DNA from: Candidatus Undinarchaeales archaeon
GTDB lineage: Archaea > SpSt-1190 > JASMDC01
NCBI GenBank assembly: GCA_030753015.1
Contig: JASMDC010000054.1
Span: 1 to 20,519, forward strand
Length of the DNA stretch: 20,519 bases
Direction: 5' to 3'
Positions 470 to 11,991 of the stretch are shown piece after piece (position 1 is the stretch's first letter; each line of letters begins with the position of its first letter). The notes under the pieces are model-generated. The model made no database searches, had not been told where the DNA came from, and worked only from the letters and a program-made list of their open reading frames with translations. The position numbers and the translations under genes were made by a program.

Positions 470-580
470 CCGGGGACCGGGAGGTTACTGAAATTTATTT
501 CAGTAACAGTGGTACGACCTGCCACCCCACCCTTTCTCTTCGACCCCCATGGACCACGGAGGGGCACCCACGTCAGATGA
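470..580. repeat. Island repeat, copy 1 (right half only)
   Basis: This is the first of the diverged intergenic repeats that separate the cassettes of the island. It carries a perfect 22-base palindrome at 485-506 (arms TTACTGAAAT and ATTTCAGTAA around TT). A conserved tggtacgacctgc stretch follows, then a C-run/G-run dyad at 544-565 (cccccatggaccacggaggggc) ending in acgtcag. The left half of the repeat (the TACCCC...GGGGTAC hairpin) is absent here. The palindrome is identical to that of the copy at 903-1100, so the two bracket the 608-907 gene as direct repeats. Confidence 0.8.
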
Positions 581-607
581 CCGTCCACCGGTACCACCGC
601 AGGGCCC

Positions 608-907
608 TCACCCGCCCCCGAGCTTTCCTTCGTCCTCCGACGCCAGCACGACCTCCCGTGCGAACACTTGCGCCCCGTAGCGCTCCAAAAGACCGATGAC
701 CGTACCGGCTCGATCGCTCGCGACCACCAGCACCGACCGTACGGGCCGCAGGTGCGACACCCTGTGGAGGAGGCCGTCACGCTCGTAGGTGTATCGGCCG
801 TTGTTGGACCTGTCCGTCCAGCCGTAGAGCTCGCGGTCGAGCCTGGTCCTGGCCCTGTCGGAGAGACCGGCGGACGCCAGATCGTAGCAGATGATCGTTG
901 CAAGCAT
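608..907 (-). CDS. Small protein, possibly Cas2/VapD-like (tentative)
   Basis: A 99-residue protein begins MLATIICYDL, a hydrophobic strand ending in a Tyr-Asp pair. It continues with an R/L-rich helix, GWTDRSNNGRYTYERDGLL, a second strand SVLVVAS and a final strand near residues 80-90 (AQVFAREVVL). A first strand ending in Asp followed by a helix and further strands resembles the ferredoxin-like fold of Cas2/VapD ribonucleases, with Asp9 where the metal-binding Asp would be. No cas1 or CRISPR array is in the window, so a CRISPR role is not supported. It is the leftmost cassette of the repeat-separated island, and its start codon lies in the conserved gcatctctac edge of the neighbouring repeat. 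The frame is convincing, but the family is a guess from pattern alone. Confidence 0.55.
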   Translation of the reverse strand: MLATIICYDLASAGLSDRARTRLDRELYGWTDRSNNGRYTYERDGLLHRVSHLRPVRSVLVVASDRAGTVIGLLERYGAQVFAREVVLASEDEGKLGGG

Positions 908-1100
908 CTCTACAGTAGTATAGTGCGGTGATAGTATGAGAAGCTCTGTATACCCCCCGGCGGGGTACCAGTAACATATAAGTCGGAAAGGGACATCGAG
1001 GATTACTGAAATTTATTTCAGTAATAATGGGACGGTCCGCCAGAGCATGACGCCCCTGCCAGCCCCCATGGACCACTCAGGGGCACCAACGTCAGTTGAT
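903..1100. repeat. Island repeat, copy 2 (nearly full length)
   Basis: Reading + strand, the parts in order are: gcatctctac; gtgcggtgatagtatga; a GC hairpin at 948-968 (gtataccccccggcggggtac); cataagtcgg-like spacer; a perfect palindrome at 1003-1024 (TTACTGAAAT-TT-ATTTCAGTAA); and a C-run/G-run dyad (gcccccatggaccactcaggggc) ending in acgtcag. The same order recurs at 3349, 4299, 5014 and 5731. It separates the minus-strand 608-907 gene from the plus-strand 1194-2027 gene. Confidence 0.85.
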
Positions 1101-1149
1101 CGTACGTACAACAGAACGCCCGCCCGCACCCCGCCCCCCAACAGCAAAC

Positions 1150-1158
1150 CATAAATAC
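1150..1158 (+). promoter_or_regulatory. Possible TATA box for the 1194 gene
   Basis: The AT-rich ccataaatac lies in a GC-rich stretch 36-43 bases before the ATG at 1194. The following leader is short and has no obvious ribosome binding site. Confidence 0.45.
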
Positions 1159-1193
1159 CGCCTTCTGCGCCGCCGGTCCACAGGACGGCCCAC

Positions 1194-2027
1194 ATGATCG
1201 ACGGAGAAGAGCTCGAAGGGTACTCGGCAGGCATCGTGCCCCCGTACATCGAGCAGGCCCACGACGAGATGGCCTTCAGCTGCAAGCTGGAGTACACCGA
1301 CCTCCTCAGCCCGCAGAGGTACGAGTATCATACCAAGGCCCAGAAGCAGCTCGTGGAAAAATGCCACGAGTACGTCGCCCAACGCCTCGGCGGCACGAAC
1401 GGCGACGGGTCCGGAAAGGCCCTTCTGATGGTCACCCACCCCTTCTACGAGGACGCCATGCGCGAGGCGGGCGAGCGTGACGAGGCCGAGGGCACCTACC
1501 AAGAACGCCTTGCGGCCTACGAGGATAACCTCCAAAAGCTCCTTTCAGAAATAGACCGGGACCGGTTCGACGTGGTGCTGCTGGAGGTACCCGAGCACTT
1601 CGCGTACCCGGGCTCGCGCTCCCGCCAGCTGGTCGACGAGCATCTGGTGGACGACGTGGTGTTCACACACTACTCCGAGGGCTCGCTGCTAAAAGACGAG
1701 GTAGAGCGTGTTGTCTCCGGATACGACGCCTACCTGGTGGCCGGCGCTTACGGGGAATACTGCGCCCAAGCGTCGCTCGACACCGTGCCCCCCGACGGCA
1801 CTGACCGCAGGTACGCCGTCACCGACGCGCTCCTCTCCTACGAGCATCTGCACAACGACGAGGATCCCCTGAGGTCCATGGCCCTCTCCTACGACGACAC
1901 CGAAGGCTTCACCTGCGTGGACGAGGTCTTATCCGATAAGCTCGACCTGGACACCGGGAAGGTCACCGGCCGCGAGCGGGGGTTCGCACGAGCGCTGAAG
2001 AAGGCGCAGGAGTGGGCAGAGGACTGA
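1194..2027 (+). CDS. Hypothetical protein, 277 aa, unrecognised
   Basis: The frame is intact from ATG to TGA, and codon use is GC-rich with strong G/C third positions, like the chromosomal genes and unlike the AT-richer toxin-antitoxin cassettes around it. The protein is acidic (many Asp/Glu) and soluble, with no signal peptide or membrane segment. Two strand-like stretches (ALLMVTHPFYEDAM near residue 75 and RFDVVLLEVPEHFAYP near residue 120) and a later YDAYLVAGAYGEYC suggest an alpha/beta fold. I cannot name a family. It is the only plus-strand gene in the island and lies between two island repeats (903-1100 and 2031-2128), so it may be a cargo gene or a resident gene around which repeats accumulated. 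Confidence 0.85.
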   Translation: MIDGEELEGYSAGIVPPYIEQAHDEMAFSCKLEYTDLLSPQRYEYHTKAQKQLVEKCHEYVAQRLGGTNGDGSGKALLMVTHPFYEDAMREAGERDEAEGTYQERLAAYEDNLQKLLSEIDRDRFDVVLLEVPEHFAYPGSRSRQLVDEHLVDDVVFTHYSEGSLLKDEVERVVSGYDAYLVAGAYGEYCAQASLDTVPPDGTDRRYAVTDALLSYEHLHNDEDPLRSMALSYDDTEGFTCVDEVLSDKLDLDTGKVTGRERGFARALKKAQEWAED

Positions 2028-2030
2028 CGG

Positions 2031-2128
2031 GGATCACTGAATTTTAGTTCAGTAACAATGGTACGATCAGCAGATTCTGGTGTCCCAACAGCCTCCATGG
2101 ACGCGAAAGGGGCACCCACGACCGTCCC
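2031..2128. repeat. Island repeat, copy 3 (right half only)
   Basis: It starts four bases after the stop of the 1194-2027 gene. The palindrome is partly decayed (ACTGAA...TTCAGT arms around ttttag). It is followed by caatggtacgatcagcag, ctggtgtcccaacagcc, tccatggacgcgaaaggggcaccc. The stretch from about 2064 nearly matches 3511-3562 at the other side of the HEPN-MNT pair, so this cassette is bracketed by direct repeats of one subtype. Confidence 0.8.
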
Positions 2129-2147
2129 TTTTCCCGTGATGTCGTGA

Positions 2148-2729
2148 TCATGATAACATCTTTCGGGCCTCTTCATTGAACCGCTTCGCCCGCTCAAGAG
2201 AGGTCCGGGCCTTGTTCCGCATCGCCGTTATCCCCAGCTCATATGTGAACCTGCCCCGTTTCCGTTTCTCATGATAATAATCATCGATGAGCTCTTTGGC
2301 CTTCTCCCTTCCGAGCAGGTCCGCCGAATCGTCCTTCGCGTCCTCGAGATCCTGAACGAGCGTCCTCTCCAGTCTGCCCGTACAGTAGAAATACTGGACA
2401 AGGGTGTCGAACACGACCGCATGGACCGACATCTGCGTCCTTACCCTGATACCATCACTTTCAAGCAAGGCCCTGGCCATGTAGAACATGGAATAGTAGC
2501 TTGAATTGATCACCCACAGGAAACCGTTGAAGCCCGGACGACCGGTCCGTTCCCTCAGCTCCTCGCTCGTTGACACGTCATACAATAATCCTGCTGAGTC
2601 AAGGGAATCCCGTGCGTTCTTCATAAAGAACGGCACGTATCGTGCCGCTTCCCCTTTGACGATGATCCCTTCCTTCAGGAGCCTCGGCACCCTTTTCTGG
2701 ATCTCCTTGATCCGCTTTTCATCGAGCAT
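2148..2729 (-). CDS. HEPN-domain toxin of a HEPN-MNT pair
   Basis: A 193-residue, mostly helical protein. Residues 97-103 read RTQMSVH, an R-x5-H match to the RX4-6H motif of HEPN ribonucleases, after the helix VINSSYYSMFYMARALL (about 73-89) that is typical of the HEPN core. In characterised HEPN-MNT systems the HEPN protein is the RNase toxin and the MNT protein neutralises it, by nucleotidylation where this has been shown; applying that here is inference. The start at 2729 lies inside the upstream MNT gene (11-base overlap), implying one transcript and coupled translation. The C-terminal third is very basic (HEKRKRGRF and onwards). Island repeats lie on both sides of the pair. Confidence 0.85.
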   Translation of the reverse strand: MLDEKRIKEIQKRVPRLLKEGIIVKGEAARYVPFFMKNARDSLDSAGLLYDVSTSEELRERTGRPGFNGFLWVINSSYYSMFYMARALLESDGIRVRTQMSVHAVVFDTLVQYFYCTGRLERTLVQDLEDAKDDSADLLGREKAKELIDDYYHEKRKRGRFTYELGITAMRNKARTSLERAKRFNEEARKMLS

Positions 2730-3315
2730 GTGACAACACCCGATAATAGTTCTCTGCTCCGAACACGATTACGTGATTGGTGAGGCTTTCGTTCATGACG
2801 TTGAGCTCATCCCTGTTCTTCAGCATCTCGATCATGCTCGTGACGGGGAGAACGGTGATATCGAAAGGAACACTGAAGGCATCGGCGATGTTGTACATCG
2901 TCTTCTCGAGAGGTCCGACGGAGCCCTCGTCCTCGATGATGACCAGGACGTCGACGTCCCGCGGTCTCTTCGCGTTCCCAACGACCGATCCGAAGAAGAG
3001 GAGAATGAAGAAATCCGTTGACAGCCTCTCAAGGATGTCATTGACGAACAGACCGACCGTCCTGTTGCTCTCAAGGAAATCCCTCTTCCGGAGACCTTCT
3101 GCATAGCAGAGCGCAAAATGGTTCATCCTGTGATCGAGCGAGAGATAGTTCTGCTTGTCCTTGACCAGAAATCCCTGGTCAAGGAGCCCTTGTATCGAAC
3201 GGTGGATCAGAGGATACGGTTTCTCCAGTTCTTCAGAGACCTGCTTGATGCTCAAGCGCTCGCCGATCTGGGATGCAAAGAGCTTCAATATCTTCAGCTG
3301 GGTCTTTGTCAACAT
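2719..3315 (-). CDS. MNT nucleotidyltransferase antitoxin with N-terminal winged helix
   Basis: A 198-residue protein. Residues 1-60 look like a winged helix-turn-helix (TQLKILKLFASQIG, then LSIKQVSEELEKPYPLIHRSIQGLLDQGFL). Residues 105-127 hold the minimal nucleotidyltransferase signature: FFGSVVG with Gly109-Ser110, then RDVDVLVII with Asp120 and Asp122. It is the first gene of the pair with the downstream HEPN gene and probably also represses the promoter through the winged helix. The start ATG at 3315 has GGTGATATC just before it and a TATA box at 3349-3362. The whole unit is AT-richer than the chromosomal genes, suggesting acquisition. Confidence 0.85.
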   Translation of the reverse strand: MLTKTQLKILKLFASQIGERLSIKQVSEELEKPYPLIHRSIQGLLDQGFLVKDKQNYLSLDHRMNHFALCYAEGLRKRDFLESNRTVGLFVNDILERLSTDFFILLFFGSVVGNAKRPRDVDVLVIIEDEGSVGPLEKTMYNIADAFSVPFDITVLPVTSMIEMLKNRDELNVMNESLTNHVIVFGAENYYRVLSHAR

Positions 3316-3348
3316 GATATCACCTTTTAGATATACCTCTATACCTTT

Positions 3349-3362
3349 TTAGTTATATATAT
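3349..3362 (-). promoter_or_regulatory. Promoter of the HEPN-MNT pair
   Basis: On the minus strand CGGAGGATATATATAACT forms a BRE-like purine run plus TATA box about 35-45 bases before the start at 3315. The same cggaggatat... box stands at the edge of the island repeat before the RelE pair, and a relict lies at 6014-6035. Confidence 0.6.
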
Positions 3363-3570
3363 CCTCCGACAGCCGTCCGAGAGCATCCTGTTCCCCGTCC
3401 TCGCGCGCATCTCTACAGCATCATGGTGCGGTGATAGTATGAACAGTTCTGTACACCCCCGGGCGGGGTACTTCTGTGATCACGAACGATAAATCAGTAA
3501 CAATGGGGAAGATCAGCTGATCCTGGTGTCCCAACAGCCCCCATGGACGCGAAAGGGGCACCCGCGATCT
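3349..3570. repeat. Island repeat, copy 4 (full length)
   Basis: The copy begins with the promoter edge (agttatatatatcctccgacagccgtccga), followed by ccccgtcctcgcgcgcatctctac, catggtgcggtgatagtatga, the hairpin gtacacccccgggcggggtac, a shortened palindrome region (aaatcagtaacaatgg) and gatcagctgatcctggtgtcccaacagcc with the cccccatggacgcgaaaggggc dyad. With the next two entries it fills the roughly 370-base gene-free stretch between the MNT gene and the vapC remnant. Confidence 0.85.
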
Positions 3571-3625
3571 GCTGTCTGATATGTTATACAACTGTATAAT
3601 CTATTCTACACTTGTGCAAATAATT
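3571..3625. other. Probable deleted-cassette scar with operator-like palindrome
   Basis: This 55-base AT-rich spacer sits between two island repeats exactly where a gene cassette would be expected. It contains the perfect 16-base palindrome TTATACA-AC-TGTATAA at 3584-3599. Its 7-2-7 shape, with AC as centre, matches the operator-like palindrome before the vapBC genes (4266-4281). I see no coding remnant, and infer that an operator survived when the gene was lost. Confidence 0.45.
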
Positions 3626-3722
3626 TACTATACCCCCGTGCGGGGTACTGATACGTGTCGGCCTGATGGGGACACGGAGGTCTACTGTACTTTAGTTCAG
3701 TAACAATGGTACGATAAGCAGG
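3626..3722. repeat. Island repeat, copy 5 (partial, fused into vapC)
   Basis: It contains the hairpin tatacccccgtgcggggtac, then gatacgtgtcgg, ggggacacggag, a palindrome variant (tactgtactttagttcagta) and caatggtacgataagcagg. It lacks the final C-run/G-run dyad. Its right end runs straight into the vapC coding sequence, so the last codons of that gene are repeat-derived. Confidence 0.8.
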
Positions 3723-3916
3723 TCCTTCTTCCTTGTCACGTCCCCATCAGAGAAGACGACCCGCCCGAGATAGGATCTGAAGAAGTCCGTTCCCCTTATC
3801 TCCTCCAGTACCGCTCGCGGGACGACAAGGGACCTGCATTCGAACAGTCTAAAGACCAGGTCAAGTCTACCGATCTTGGAAAACGAGCTCAGGAAGTCGG
3901 TATCAACGATGATCAT
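3692..3916 (-). pseudogene. Truncated VapC-like PIN-domain toxin
   Basis: The 74 residues start MIIVDTDFLSSFSKIG, with the first PIN-domain Asp at residue 5, and include the conserved Glu region VVPRAVLEEI (about residues 32-41). PIN toxins usually have about 120-140 residues and need further acidic residues in the second half, which are missing. The last codons (LLIVPLLLN) are encoded by the island repeat, whose caatggtacgataagcagg block is read through on the minus strand. The gene therefore seems cut off near residue 62 by the repeat and is probably inactive. The start overlaps the antitoxin stop by four bases (ATGA), as in an intact vapBC pair. Confidence 0.75.
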
Positions 3917-4257
3917 ATTGGTTTCCGTCCGATCTGCTCCATGACCTCCTTGGCCGTTCTCTCCATCTCCTCGGCCGATCCGCCCACCTTTCTCGCGATC
4001 CCCCTCTCGTGGAGCATCCTCTTCATCTCCTCGATGTTCACGTCGGCGATCTCCGAGGCCTTACCGAGGGATATCTCCTCCCTGTCGTAGAGCGCGCAGG
4101 CCAGGGCGGACCGGACGTCGCGCCTCGCCGCGAGAAGGGTGCGGATCGCATCGCGGATGAACTCGCTCTTGTTGTCGTAGTAGCCTGTGCTCGCGACAAC
4201 GTCCAGTTCCTTCTTCATCAGCGGGGGGAGCGTGAAGCTCACGGTCATGCTTGCCAT
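3913..4257 (-). CDS. Ribbon-helix-helix antitoxin (VapB-like) with UPF0175-like C-terminal part
   Basis: The chosen start is ATG at 4257, giving 114 residues beginning MASMTVSFTLPPLMKKEL; a longer frame upstream would read through the promoter. Residues 1-45 fit a ribbon-helix-helix DNA-binding domain: one strand, then YYDNKSEFIRDAIRTLLA. Residues 57-88 (DREEISLGKASEIADVNIEEMKRMLHERG, in part) resemble the UPF0175 segment found in several archaeal antitoxins. It lies directly upstream of the truncated PIN toxin with an ATGA overlap. Autoregulation through the palindrome at 4266-4281 is likely. The 5312-5650 protein is its close relative in layout. Confidence 0.8.
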   Translation of the reverse strand: MASMTVSFTLPPLMKKELDVVASTGYYDNKSEFIRDAIRTLLAARRDVRSALACALYDREEISLGKASEIADVNIEEMKRMLHERGIARKVGGSAEEMERTAKEVMEQIGRKPI

Positions 4258-4265
4258 CAGATCAC

Positions 4266-4298
4266 CAATACTACAGTATTGTTGTGGTACTATATTAA
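4266..4298 (-). promoter_or_regulatory. Operator palindrome and TATA box of vapBC
   Basis: A perfect palindrome CAATACT-AC-AGTATTG lies at 4266-4281, nine bases before the antitoxin start, and a minus-strand TATA box (rc of tatatta) at 4292-4298. Ribbon-helix-helix antitoxins commonly bind such palindromes to repress their own operon. Confidence 0.65.
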
Positions 4299-4513
4299 CC
4301 TGTCGGCCACCGTCCGATGACGTCCGTGCCCCCGTCCTTGCGCGCATCTCCAATCATACCCTGGTGCAGCGATAGTATGAATTGCTCTGTACACTCCCCG
4401 GCGGGGTAACATGAACGTATAAGTCGGACACAGCAGATCACGGGTTCTTAGTTCAGTAACATGTTGACGCTCCCGTAAGCCCCCATGGACGCGGGGGGGG
4501 CGACAACGTCAAC
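4299..4513. repeat. Island repeat, copy 6 (full length)
   Basis: The order is: gtcggccaccgtccgatgacgtccgtgcccccgtccttgcgcgcatctc (in part), gtgcagcgatagtatga, hairpin gtacactccccggcggggta, gaacgtataagtcggacaca, half of the palindrome (cttagttcagtaac), and the agcccccatggacgcggggggggc dyad ending in acgtcaacgg. Its last bases overlap the stop codon of the RelE-like toxin (TGA = complement of 4509-4511). Confidence 0.85.
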
Positions 4514-4793
4514 GGTCCATCCCCTCATATGCATCGTCCCGGTGCGAGATGCGGGCGATCCAGAGCGTGTCCTTTTCAGCCTGGAAGATGACGCGATGGT
4601 CACCGGAACGTAGTCTGAAGATGCGTTCTTTCTTTGCCGTGCCTTGAAGTTTCTTGATATCGAGCCGGCATGATGGGGATAGGAAGGTGCGGGCGAGCTC
4701 GCGGATATCCTCGATGATCTTGTCCCGGATCGACCCCCGGACCCGGTCGAGCTCCTTGAGGGCCTTGGGATGGATACGGACGCGCAGGCTCAT
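4509..4793 (-). CDS. RelE/ParE-family toxin
   Basis: A 94-residue basic protein of the expected RelE/ParE size. It begins RVRIHPKALKELDRV, then has the helical DKIIEDIRELA, the strand IKKLQG, and the C-terminal core IFRLRSGDHRVIFQ followed by ARISHRDDAY. The R-x-G-x-H-R-V-I and I-x-H-R-D stretches are the typical core of this fold, which in the family cleaves mRNA on the ribosome or poisons gyrase; which applies here cannot be told. It starts at 4793 with an ATGA overlap with the upstream antitoxin. The stop lies in the neighbouring island repeat. Confidence 0.88.
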   Translation of the reverse strand: MSLRVRIHPKALKELDRVRGSIRDKIIEDIRELARTFLSPSCRLDIKKLQGTAKKERIFRLRSGDHRVIFQAEKDTLWIARISHRDDAYEGMDR

Positions 4794-4978
4794 ATCGCCT
4801 CATCGAGGTCCACGAACTCCTTCTTGGCATCAAGGCGACGTCGGACCTCCTCGATATACGTCTCCCGGTCCACGATGTCGAGGATGCGTGCAAGGATCTC
4901 GTCGTAGGTATCACCCTTCGAGCCCAGGCTCTTGAGTCGGTCACGTACAGCCTCGGAGACGGCGATCGTCGTCGACAT
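4790..4978 (-). CDS. Antitoxin partner of the RelE-like toxin
   Basis: The chosen start is ATG at 4978, giving 62 residues beginning MSTTIAVSEAVRDRLKSLGS; the longer open frame upstream covers promoter and repeat and is unlikely to be translated. The T-T-I-x-V-S-E-x-x-R-D-R-L-K opening and the following GDTYDEILARIL are characteristic of short archaeal antitoxins encoded just before RelE-type toxins (VapB/DUF7557-like). Its C-terminal part (ETYIEEVRRRLDAKKEF) would wrap the toxin. Upstream are direct TATAAC/ATAAC elements and a TATA box, likely the regulated promoter. Confidence 0.82.
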   Translation of the reverse strand: MSTTIAVSEAVRDRLKSLGSKGDTYDEILARILDIVDRETYIEEVRRRLDAKKEFVDLDEAI

Positions 4979-4984
4979 TATAGT

Positions 4985-5015
4985 TGTTATGGTCGTTATA
5001 TCTATTATATCCTCC
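4985..5015 (-). promoter_or_regulatory. Promoter of the RelE pair
   Basis: The minus strand reads CCGGAGGATATAATAGATATAAC followed by ATAACAACTATA before the ATG at 4978. The GGAGGATATA box matches the promoter edge of the island repeat at 3349. The repeated ATAAC elements are candidate operator half-sites. Confidence 0.55.
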
Positions 5016-5294
5016 GGTCCGTCACATGGGTTTTCGCCCGTCACCTTGCGCTCATCTCTACCGTTCCATGGTGCGGCGATAGTATGAAAAGCTCTGTATA
5101 CCCTCTTGAGAAGTACTGGATACGTATAAGCGGGACGGGGACACAGAGATTTACTGTACTTTAATTCAGTAATCCCCAACGGATCCGGGACACAGAAAAG
5201 TACTGTACTTTAATTCAGTAATATCGGGATGACCTGCTGCTATGGCTTTCCTTACAACGATCCCGGACCACCGAGGGGCGCAAATGTCCGTGGA
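5014..5294. repeat. Island repeat, copy 7 (full length, with internal 49-bp duplication)
   Basis: The order is ttgcgctcatctctac, catggtgcggcgatagtatgaa, gtataccctcttgagaagtac (the hairpin has lost its G/C runs but keeps the GTA...TAC ends), acgtataagcggg, then a segment present twice. gggacacag...tactgtactttaattcagtaat occurs at about 5138-5173 and again at 5187-5222, exactly 49 bases apart. The tail gacctgctgctatggctttccttacaacg ends in a weak cccggaccaccgagggg dyad. This fills the gene-free stretch 4979-5311. Confidence 0.85.
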
Positions 5295-5311
5295 TCAGGT
5301 ATCGACTATGA

Positions 5312-5650
5312 TCAGACGATCTGCCCTTTCAATTCCTCGATGTTCCGCTCGTTCATATCCTTCTTCTTCCCGATACCGGCCTTCCCCCTTCGAATGATAC
5401 CTTCGTCGATGAGGATGTTCTTCATCTGTTCGAAGGGGATCCCCGCGATCTCGGCAGCACGGGATATCGTGATATCTACGGTCCGATATCTCTTCAGAGC
5501 GATGACGAGCCGTTCCTTGGACTTCTGGGAGAGGAAGGAACGAATGGCATCACGGAACAGCTCGGAGCGATTATCATAGTAGCCTTCATCGATAAAGGCC
5601 TGGATATCCTCGCTCATCTTCTTTGGTATCGTTATGGTCACCATGAACAT
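5312..5650 (-). CDS. Orphan ribbon-helix-helix antitoxin with UPF0175-like part
   Basis: A 112-residue protein beginning MFMVTITIPKKMSEDIQAF; ATG at 5650 or the third codon could be the start. The first 45 residues match a ribbon-helix-helix domain (strand VTITIP, then YYDNRSELFRDAIRSFL). The middle (VDITISRAAEIAGIPFEQMK) resembles UPF0175. It has the same architecture as the 3913-4257 antitoxin, but no toxin gene follows: within about 20 bases of its stop the sequence becomes the island repeat. Either the toxin was lost or the protein acts alone as a regulator. Confidence 0.82.
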   Translation of the reverse strand: MFMVTITIPKKMSEDIQAFIDEGYYDNRSELFRDAIRSFLSQKSKERLVIALKRYRTVDITISRAAEIAGIPFEQMKNILIDEGIIRRGKAGIGKKKDMNERNIEELKGQIV

Positions 5651-5700
5651 TCACTATTAATTATTAACATTAACAAATACTAATAACTTTCTATTAGTCT
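5651..5700 (-). promoter_or_regulatory. Promoter/operator region of the orphan antitoxin
   Basis: This is a very AT-rich stretch with a perfect inverted repeat ACTAATA-N6-TATTAGT (5679-5685 and 5692-5698) and overlapping TTAAT/ATTAA elements near 5655-5675. It is a plausible autoregulatory operator beside a minus-strand TATA region. Confidence 0.5.
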
Positions 5701-5730
5701 ATAGGATATCTCCCCCTGACGCGGGAAAGG

Positions 5731-5934
5731 GCCGTCCGATGGCGTCCGTGTCCCCGTCCCTGCGCTCATCTCCACGGTATCATGATGCGCTGATAGTATG
5801 AATAATACTGTATACCCTTGCGCGGGGTACATCTGGATCTACTGAACAATTGTACCGTAGGAATGGGACGACCTGCTGTGATGGCTTCCCTTACAACGTC
5901 CATGGACCACGGAGGGGCCGCTACGACAGCCGGA
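5731..5934. repeat. Island repeat, copy 8 (full length)
   Basis: The order is gccgtccgatggcgtccgtgtccccgtccctgcgctcatctcc (in part), gatgcgctgatagtatgaa, hairpin gtatacccttgcgcggggtac, a degraded palindrome (actgaacaattgtaccgta), gggacgacctgctgtgatggcttcccttacaacg and the ccatggaccacggagggg dyad. Its tail is of the same subtype as the 5014-5294 copy, so the orphan antitoxin is bracketed by matching tails. Confidence 0.85.
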
Positions 5935-6045
5935 CCAATGCTGGACGATCATCCGTATCAGGTAATATCTGAATGTCAAGATGATGTCATCGTTTTGATA
6001 TGGTCCTGTATCTTATTAGTTATATGAATCCTCCGACGGCCGTCC
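5935..6045. other. Gene-free remnant at the right edge of the island
   Basis: No coding sequence is recognisable. The right part (6014-6044, attagttatatgaatcctccgacggccgtcc in part) matches the promoter edge of the repeat at 3349-3379, including the TATA box and the cctccgac block. The rest of the repeat does not follow. This looks like the promoter of a lost minus-strand cassette and the point where the island ends and chromosomal sequence starts. Together with the repeat at 5731 and the gap leader it makes up the roughly 590-base stretch between genes. Confidence 0.5.
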
Positions 6046-6150
6046 CCACGCGTCCCGACACCCGGTTGGCCCGGCCCTTTCTCTGGAACACCTCCGCCCG
6101 TATGGTCGTACCACAAACGGTCGGATGACACCGGTGTGACAGGCAGCGAC

Positions 6151-7258: not shown

Positions 7259-7377
7259 CCCGCTGGAGGGCGGAGGGCATAGCCGGTGTCCGGCGGACGT
7301 TCGTGCGGCAGGGACCGGACGACGTCCTGAAGAAGGCTCGTCCTGCAGCGTCCATGGGCCACGGAAGGGCGACCATC

Positions 7378-8318: not shown

Positions 8319-8849
8319 TCAGAGCACCTCTACGAATCCGTTGAGGGTGATGCCGTTGACGATGTTGTTCGCTAGGCGCTCGTTCTCCACCGATCGAATG
8401 CTCGTGTGCACGAAGGATTGGATCCTCCGTCCCAGCCGCTCCTCGAAGGGCGCCAGGTCACCGACCTTCTTGTGAGCTGTCTCCACATAGATGTCGATGT
8501 CGCTCGTCTCGATGTCCTCCCCGCGTGCATAGGAGCCGAACACCACTAACGTCGGATTGTCGTACATGCGACGGAGGTGCTCGATCAGTCCCGATCCATG
8601 AAGTGAGCGCAGGTTGTACAACAACTTCTCCAGCAGATAGCTCGTGGACGTCCTACCGGCGATGAAGAAGGTGGTGTCGCCGATGATCTCCTTTCCGAGG
8701 AACCCCTCATCCACCAGCTCGCCCGTGTAGCGGATGACGGACGGAAGCGCGAGCCCAAGCTCCCGCTCCAACTGACGGACGCGGTACCTTCCGGTGGGAT
8801 TCTGGAAGAAGTGCTCGAGAAGGCGATGCTTGACGTTCCGCTGCCGCAT
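8319..8849 (-). CDS. Winged-helix MNT nucleotidyltransferase
   Basis: A 176-residue protein. Residues 1-65 look like a winged helix (RLLEHFFQNPTGRYRVRQLERELGLALPSV in parts, then ELVDEGFL). Residues 101-122 carry the nucleotidyltransferase signature: FGSYARG (Gly105-Ser106), then SDIDIYVE (Asp117, Asp119). It lacks a HEPN partner next to it, though HEPN genes lie further right at 9094 and 10209. Its promoter carries a conspicuous operator (8850-8889), so autoregulation is likely. It matches the MNT antitoxin class; a role without a HEPN toxin is unclear. Confidence 0.85.
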   Translation of the reverse strand: MRQRNVKHRLLEHFFQNPTGRYRVRQLERELGLALPSVIRYTGELVDEGFLGKEIIGDTTFFIAGRTSTSYLLEKLLYNLRSLHGSGLIEHLRRMYDNPTLVVFGSYARGEDIETSDIDIYVETAHKKVGDLAPFEERLGRRIQSFVHTSIRSVENERLANNIVNGITLNGFVEVL

Positions 8850-8907
8850 ATGATAACTTATGTTATCAACTGATATTTATAGTTATCATTACCCCGCGGA
8901 GGAGTAC
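8848..8907 (-). promoter_or_regulatory. Operator/promoter with TGATAAC repeats (copy 1)
   Basis: Directly before the start at 8849 are ATGATAACT (8850-8858) and its exact inverse AGTTATCAT (8881-8889). An inner perfect palindrome TGATAAC-TTAT-GTTATCA spans 8851-8868. After it comes taccccgcggaggagtac. About 60 bases recur at 10045-10104 with the same 40-base outer spacing, so this is a conserved regulatory unit. Confidence 0.7.
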
Positions 8908-8981
8908 CTACAGCTTCCTCTTCACGCCCTTCGCCCGCGAGAGCAGCATGGATGGCTCCACGCTCATGTTGAACAGCGCGC
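8908..8981 (-). pseudogene. Detached 3' end of a CDP-alcohol phosphatidyltransferase gene
   Basis: The minus strand encodes ALFNMSVEPSMLLSRAKG then VKRKL and a TAG stop. This matches the last residues of the phosphatidyltransferase ending at 11338 (ALLNMSVELSMLLSRAKG, AKKRL). By my count the two 74-base stretches align without gaps with 11 differences. There is no matching sequence further right. The fragment marks the left boundary of the segment 8982-11337. Confidence 0.85.
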
Positions 8982-10035: not shown

Positions 10036-10044
10036 AGCTGCTGA

Positions 10045-10104
10045 ATATGATAACTTCTGCTATCAACCGATATCCCGAGTTATCATACTCCATGGAGAAG
10101 TACT
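10045..10104 (+). repeat. Second copy of the TGATAAC operator unit
   Basis: Outer arms ATGATAACT (10047-10055) and AGTTATCAT (10078-10086) are 40 bases end to end, exactly as at 8850-8889. The flanks also match (atatgataactt...ggagaagtact against ggaggagtacc). The inner palindrome is damaged (GCTATCA instead of GTTATCA). No minus-strand nucleotidyltransferase gene follows on its left, so it may be a relict promoter or a second binding site of the same regulator. Homology rests on about 60 aligned bases. Confidence 0.65.
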
Positions 10105-11337: not shown

Positions 11338-11411
11338 TTACAGCCGCTTCTTGGCGCCCTTGGCCCGCGAGAGCAGCATGGACAGCTCCACGCTCATGTT
11401 CAGCAGCGCGC
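11338..11411. repeat. Right copy of the 74-bp boundary repeat (3' end of the phosphatidyltransferase gene)
   Basis: These bases, the last 24 codons plus stop of the gene at 11338-11991, match 8908-8981 in the same orientation without gaps. The pair forms direct repeats 2.4 kb apart and could be attachment-site-like ends of an insertion. Confidence 0.75.
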
Positions 11412-11991
11412 ACAGGGCCACGGCCCCCACCGCCTCGGGCGTATAGCCGGAGAGCAGACCCACCACCACAAGCTCGCGCCGGGGCGTCCGCGTCACATCG
11501 AAGCCCTCGATGCCCAGCGCCTTGCCGTGCACCCGGTTGAACACGATGAGCGTGCCCGCGAACAGCGCCGTGATGCACATCTCCGGCGGTGCCAATTTCG
11601 CCACCGCCACAGCGCCCAGGATGAGGAACTCGCTCATCCGGTCCACGGCGAAGTCCAGCACCGCACCGCGCTCGGTCTCCATGTGCTTGGCCCGGGCCAG
11701 CAGGCCGTCGAGCGCGTCGAACCCGGCGGCCAGTACGAAAAAGACCGCTCCCAGCTCAGGACGCTGGTTCCAGATGAAGTACGCGCCCATCACCGACGCC
11801 CACAGGTCGATGAGCGTAGCGCCGTTGGGAGAGAGCGGGATGCGCTCCACCAGGCCGCCGAACCGGATCAGGGTGTCCTGCTTGATGGCGCCGAGCGTGG
11901 CCCTGCTGCCGCCGCGCAGGAGGTACAGGGGCACCCAGAACAGTCCAGTCGTGCAGAACAGGCCCAGAACGAGATCATCCAATGGTCTCAC
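11338..11991 (-). CDS. CDP-alcohol phosphatidyltransferase (second of two)
   Basis: A 217-residue membrane enzyme. The CDP-alcohol phosphatidyltransferase signature is complete: Asp92-x2-Asp95-Gly96-x2-Ala99-Arg100-x8-Gly109-x3-Asp113-x3-Asp117. Hydrophobic segments lie around residues 8-25, 80-92, 118-135 and 165-200. The family transfers an alcohol phosphate or alcohol onto a CDP-lipid; in archaea candidates are archaetidyl-inositol-phosphate or -glycerol/serine synthesis, and the substrate cannot be read from the sequence. The start is GTG at 11991, overlapping the PHP gene by 17 bases. It is the last gene of the operon, and its 3' end is the boundary of the 8982-11337 insertion. Confidence 0.88.
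   Translation of the reverse strand: MRPLDDLVLGLFCTTGLFWVPLYLLRGGSRATLGAIKQDTLIRFGGLVERIPLSPNGATLIDLWASVMGAYFIWNQRPELGAVFFVLAAGFDALDGLLARAKHMETERGAVLDFAVDRMSEFLILGAVAVAKLAPPEMCITALFAGTLIVFNRVHGKALGIEGFDVTRTPRRELVVVGLLSGYTPEAVGAVALCALLNMSVELSMLLSRAKGAKKRL

Follow-up and report, generated by a model that had tools for sequence, protein, structure and literature searches.

In the reading that we favour and hold with about even confidence, a repeat found between the toxin–antitoxin (TA) modules of an archaeal genome is spacer and leader DNA private to one locus, which was copied repeatedly as the modules were inserted there. The window, i.e. the whole stretch of DNA analysed, is contig C67 (20,519 bp), one of the 117 contigs of an archaeal genome of 3.85 Mb. 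When this genome was searched with sequence models of the repeat, copies were confined to positions 473–6070 of the window, with E-values down to 1e-23, which excludes chance. The case bears on how TA modules can move when no transposase is involved: a genome in which several of them lie between locus-specific copies of host DNA, at least five of them in series at one locus, provides a test case for insertion with target duplication in Archaea.

Organization of the repeat and of the array

The repeat is longer than the stretch first singled out (948–1100), its full form measuring ∼210–230 bp. Alignment of the intergenic regions defined five modules, given here on the + strand. M1 reads CCGTCCGATGACGTCCGTGCCCCCGTCC; M2, which contains a GC hairpin, reads CATCTCTACAG..GGTGCGGTGATAGTATGAA..GCTCTGTATACCCCCCGGCGGGGTAC; M3 reads ..ATATAAGTCGG..GGGGACACGGAG; M4 consists of a palindrome plus CAATGGTACGACCTGC; and M5, with a C-run/G-run dyad, reads CCCCCATGGACCACGGAGGGGCACC.ACGTC. 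A short form of ∼110 bp takes in the end of M3 and all of M4 and M5, carries the palindrome and the C/G-run dyad, and occurs at eight sites (A, B, C, D1, D2, E, F and G, of which D2 is truncated). Next to the start of a minus-strand gene, the copy additionally has a leader module of ∼130 bp that contains the GC hairpin. M2, mostly together with M1, is present in B, D1, E, F and G only, D2 having just the hairpin part, and M3 is missing from both D1 and G.

The copies alternate with genes in an array that runs from tRNA-Glu to the glyceraldehyde-3-phosphate dehydrogenase gene. Copy A (473–584, + strand), a short form made up of the end of M3, the M4 palindrome and the M5 C/G dyad, leads from tRNA-Glu to a 99-aa gene (608–907, − strand). 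It is followed by copy B (899–1105, +; M2-M3-M4-M5), the copy described in the earlier note, and by a 277-aa gene (1194–2027, +), the sole plus-strand gene of the array, with no family match above cut-off. Copy C (2019–2125, +), again a short form, is flanked by the 277-aa gene and the HEPN gene of a HEPN + HTH-MNT toxin–antitoxin pair (2148–3315, −; HEPN 2148–2729, HTH-MNT 2719–3315). Two copies come next, D1 (3360–3574, +; M1-M2-M4-M5) and D2 (3619–3726, +; partial M2, M3 and M4), the latter entering the 3′ end of a truncated PIN-like toxin gene (3692–3916) that is paired with an RHH/UPF0175 antitoxin gene (pair at 3692–4275, −). The remainder comprises copy E (4297–4516, +; M1–M5), a ParE toxin + DUF7557 antitoxin pair (4509–4978, −), copy F (5016–5296, +; M1–M5, with a 49-bp tandem duplication of the palindrome region), a lone RHH antitoxin-like gene (5312–5650, −), copy G (5713–5937, +; M1-M2-M4-M5) and, before the dehydrogenase gene, a remnant (5974–6064, +) that holds an MNT gene start with its promoter and a piece of M1 and matches 3307–3397 at 74%.

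Two of these genes deserve comment. The PIN-like gene is cut short at the edge of copy D2 and, being truncated, probably leaves the PIN/RHH pair without a working toxin. The 99-aa gene is not assigned to a family: its product had no match of note in Pfam, NCBIfam or PDB, and no homologues were present in viral contigs. The protein has paralogues in the genome, one of which forms the C-terminal portion of a nucleotidyltransferase-like protein, so that the 99-aa gene is probably to be counted among the TA genes as well. A by-eye reading of it as Cas2-like was supported by no library searched.

Confinement of the repeat to the locus

Sequence models of M4–M5 and of M1–M2 found no further genomic copy above noise, and a pattern search for the core had no hits in the genome collection or in IMG/VR. 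Among 40 relatives, none of the same family, there was one weak match to the repeat. An M5-like match at 7302–7375 of the window (E 0.009) was not counted, because chance matches elsewhere reach a similar level (0.04).

This confinement bears on the idea that the repeat is a miniature transposable element (MITE or REP-like) that inserted repeatedly. The repeat is short and intergenic and has inverted repeats, and M1 of copy E is similar to the reverse complement of its own M5 (p 0.04). However, no copies occur beyond the 6-kb locus, all of them share one orientation, and the terminal inverted repeats are not above shuffles in D1 (p 0.28), F (p 0.12) or G (p 0.50), so that we regard a transposable element as a highly improbable source of the copies.

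Relationships among the copies

Among the short forms, copies C and D1 are sisters, with 86% identity and a tree support of 99; A and B share 74% identity, and F and G 67% with a tree support of 85. There is a tendency for the two copies that border a module to be most closely related to each other, which is the outcome expected of target duplication at each insertion. Against a duplication reading, A–B and F–G are mutual best matches in only 58% and 36% of bootstraps, respectively. Unequal crossing-over or gene conversion would make neighbouring copies alike as well. The copies are mosaic, because M1–M2 and M4–M5 have different closest relatives; in M1–M2, G is nearest to D1.

In the scheme that we propose, TA modules would have been inserted one after another into the interval bounded by tRNA-Glu and the glyceraldehyde-3-phosphate dehydrogenase gene. 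The duplicated target would be the short form (end of M3, M4 and M5), which now spaces successive modules, and the M1–M2 part would be a leader 5′ of the minus-strand modules. That the target was duplicated at each insertion we infer by analogy with what is reported for restriction–modification genes, and the recombination route may have been homology-driven or illegitimate integration. The dyads would be passengers or old cis-elements of the spacer, free to decay in most copies.

Other TA loci between direct repeats

A module between direct repeats of host DNA was found at the array and at four other TA loci of the genome, where the repeats are unrelated to that of the array. A HEPN/MNT locus on contig C106 is flanked by copies of a coding stretch (208 bp, 83%), a UPF0175 gene on C52 by 44-bp copies (84%), and a HEPN gene on C84 lies inside repeats of 155 and 192 bp. 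In the window itself, HEPN genes at 9.1–11.3 kb lie between 8909–8981 and 11339–11411 (73 bp, 86%). This repeat corresponds to the last 24 codons and the stop of a CDP-alcohol phosphotransferase gene (11338–11991, minus strand), the end of which is duplicated 2.4 kb away, around two HEPN/nucleotidyltransferase modules. With the array excluded, 4 of 13 TA anchors were enclosed by repeats versus 4 of 100 random control positions drawn from 20 stretches of 15 kb (p 0.006); with the array and the whole of contig C67 excluded, the count was 3 of 12 (p 0.026). PIN anchors elsewhere were enclosed in 0 of 7 cases. This result counts against the duplication reading, and the repeat-flanking habit is therefore not common to all TA genes.

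Several further repeats were seen near genes of this kind. An 82% repeat in the window (8840–8889 and 10037–10086) contains a TGATAAC...GTTATCA dyad and precedes the start of an MNT gene as well as a HEPN gene, for which it may serve as a common operator. At L084, copies of a mutL 3′ end (4487–4540 and 6089–6142; 54 bp, 80%) flank a pyruvate kinase-like gene that a HEPN/MNT-like pair adjoins, perhaps the same kind of insertion with other cargo. The small contig C87 (L055) has a GC content of 46%, compared with about 60% elsewhere, and is rich in TA-like genes; a 44-bp, 98% intergenic direct repeat (2321–2364 and 3890–3933) surrounds a RelE-like gene on it.

Comparison with known insertions

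Restriction–modification genes insert with long, variable duplications of the target that measure on the order of 100 bp (PMC3874152, PMC3031569), as reported by Nobusato 2000 and Furuta 2010, which both papers cite. To the extent that those insertions are outlined there, the likeness lies in selfish gene pairs between ∼100-bp variable target repeats with no transposase. The present modules differ from the insertions so outlined in being archaeal TA modules, in having been inserted repeatedly at one site and in the divergence of the copies (mostly 60–86% identity), and here, as set against the target duplication in those accounts, the duplication is read from repeats within one genome. The locus fits insertion with long target duplication, repeated at one site.

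Two TA loci offer further parallels. In Microcystis aeruginosa, a ParE-type TA pair is fenced by 152-bp direct repeats with internal inverted repeats (PMC7935541). Both loci have a TA pair between direct repeats of the same orientation, each with an inverted repeat; the Microcystis locus has one module and identical repeats, whereas here an array of modules is separated by diverged, mosaic repeats. The vapBC loci of Sulfolobus islandicus are likewise archaeal TA genes flanked by repeated DNA, in that case degenerate insertion sequences that are thought to have moved them (PMC3718332). Unlike those loci, the array has no transposase gene between the copies and shows no dispersal, and the terminal inverted repeats are not significant in three of four copies.

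The dyads and their decay

The earlier note had ascribed three separate dyads to the repeat. In copy B, the GC hairpin of M2 is present at 948–968 just as described (GTATACCCCCCGGCGGGGTAC), and so is the C-run/G-run dyad, at about 1062–1086. What had been called a perfect 22-base palindrome, TTACTGAAAT-TT-ATTTCAGTAA, is found at 1003–1024 and, identically, at 485–506, and its arms are indeed perfect, with 11 bp each (1002–1025 in M4 of copy B, 484–507 in copy A). The TT centre, however, is not self-complementary, and the element is an inverted repeat with a 2-base spacer; we retain the word palindrome for brevity. Its outermost (eleventh) pair is G-C in copy A and A-T in copy B. Since arms of at least 10 bp with a loop of at most 6 are expected only ∼0.2 times per dinucleotide-shuffled window, the palindrome is not due to chance.

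The statement that all three dyads recur in each full copy was too strong: only in copy B are they all intact. The GC-hairpin module is wholly missing from copies A and C. Decay of the palindrome in some copies, which had already been remarked upon, affects the left arm in D1 (3480–3500) and E (4438–4459), and copy G (5839–5860) keeps 8 of 10 pairs. The C-run is weak in copy C and gone in F and G. Copy F has lost the GC arms and kept the GTA...TAC ends, in agreement with the earlier observation; 5096–5116 reads GTATACCCTCTTGAGAAGTAC. Real and non-random as they are, the dyads are best read as parts of the duplicated spacer. A similar dyad, TTACTGA-N8-TCAGTAA, lies in an AT-rich intergenic region of contig C32 (35507–35528) and may be due to chance.

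RNA structure and termination

A stable RNA in the minus-strand transcripts had been suggested, with covariance analysis as the check. Judged against shuffles on 6–9 copies from one locus, a sample of low power, no dyad showed a compensatory excess: paired cells amounted to 77.2% versus 75.3% in shuffles for the palindrome, 90.5% versus 91.3% for the GC hairpin and 84.4% versus 84.7% for the C/G dyad. Double changes in the palindrome numbered three in copy G, among ten counted pairs, plus the eleventh pair in A versus B, and 120 of 500 shuffles likewise yielded three or more double-change pairs. Single copies can form hairpins on the minus strand, best of all copy B (z-score −1.9), but the remaining full copies showed no gain over shuffles (E, −0.4; D1, +1.7; G, −0.35), and there is no consistent excess of stability. 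In an Rfam search, tRNA was the sole match and the repeat was unmatched. Runs of at least four T, as in an archaeal terminator, are absent from the minus strand of every copy except for an isolated TTTT in copy F.

With covariation, fold stability and T-runs all lacking in these tests, the repeat can hardly be a stable structured RNA or a terminator of minus-strand transcripts. The proposal that it is more than a terminator is borne out, given the missing T-runs and its position at the junctions of an array of inserted modules. A caution follows for similar loci: repeated hairpins around TA genes can be spacer copies and not conserved RNA structures.

A possible promoter in M2

The longest invariant run of the repeat lies outside the dyads. 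GATAGTATGA (929–938, + strand) is invariant in 5 of 5 M2 copies, with p 0.018 for a run of such length. On the minus strand, TCATACTATC begins 32 nt upstream of the 99-aa start codon, and GATAGTATGA falls where a TATA box would be expected for a leaderless transcript of this gene, which makes M2 a plausible, though only putative, promoter.

More broadly, the repeat might be made up of cis-regulatory modules, with M2 serving as promoter and leader and M4 as the operator of an antitoxin or regulator, and with selection maintaining them at every TA operon. The invariant stretch agrees with this, and so does the finding that wherever a minus-strand module has a full copy, M2 lies on its 5′ side. 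However, the other start codons are 105–151 nt away from M2 and have AT-rich promoter-like sequences of their own, and the palindrome, which shows no covariation, has degenerated in D1 and E. On balance, we consider regulation by these modules unlikely as the explanation of the repeat, and continue to prefer duplicated spacer and leader DNA.

Recombination sites and recombinases

A recombination site was another function suggested for the repeat. This idea stands in so far as the repeat marks the junctions of inserted modules, but it loses ground where the sites and enzymes of integrons are concerned. In an integron-like cassette array, TA modules would be captured by a tyrosine recombinase acting on the short form as its private site. 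Sites and modules alternate with the order and polarity of cassettes, most genes run in the same direction, short copies A and C begin at about the same place in M3, and the genome has XerA-type recombinases, remnants of which adjoin TA genes on contigs C76 and C53. Integrons of Archaea (PMC9668308) are similar in that they are arrays of small modules, commonly TA genes, with a repeated dyad-bearing site between modules; they differ in having the attC core boxes and the full integron integrase that were not found here. The core boxes RYYYAAC and GTTRRRY are absent from all copies on both strands. In a scan that covered all but one of the paralogues for an integron integrase with its extra domain, the best candidate, the recombinase on C31, scored 220 bits versus the TIGR02249 cut-off of 265, and its best stretch ends at 177 of 315. 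The window itself is without a recombinase, and the site has no copy elsewhere in the genome. A cassette array of the integron kind is accordingly quite doubtful.

A variant in which an archaeal cassette-capture locus gathers TA modules at the private ∼110-bp site by means of a XerA-type recombinase, with neither attC nor integron integrase, seems to us very unlikely. The C31 recombinase passes the archaeal XerA model, and two paralogues are broken; the recombinase at C76 is interrupted by a stop and that at C53 is internally deleted. The XerA-type remnants directly beside TA genes lie at L066 (630–1991) and L067 (4866–6063), one of them interrupted by a TAG codon and one internally deleted.
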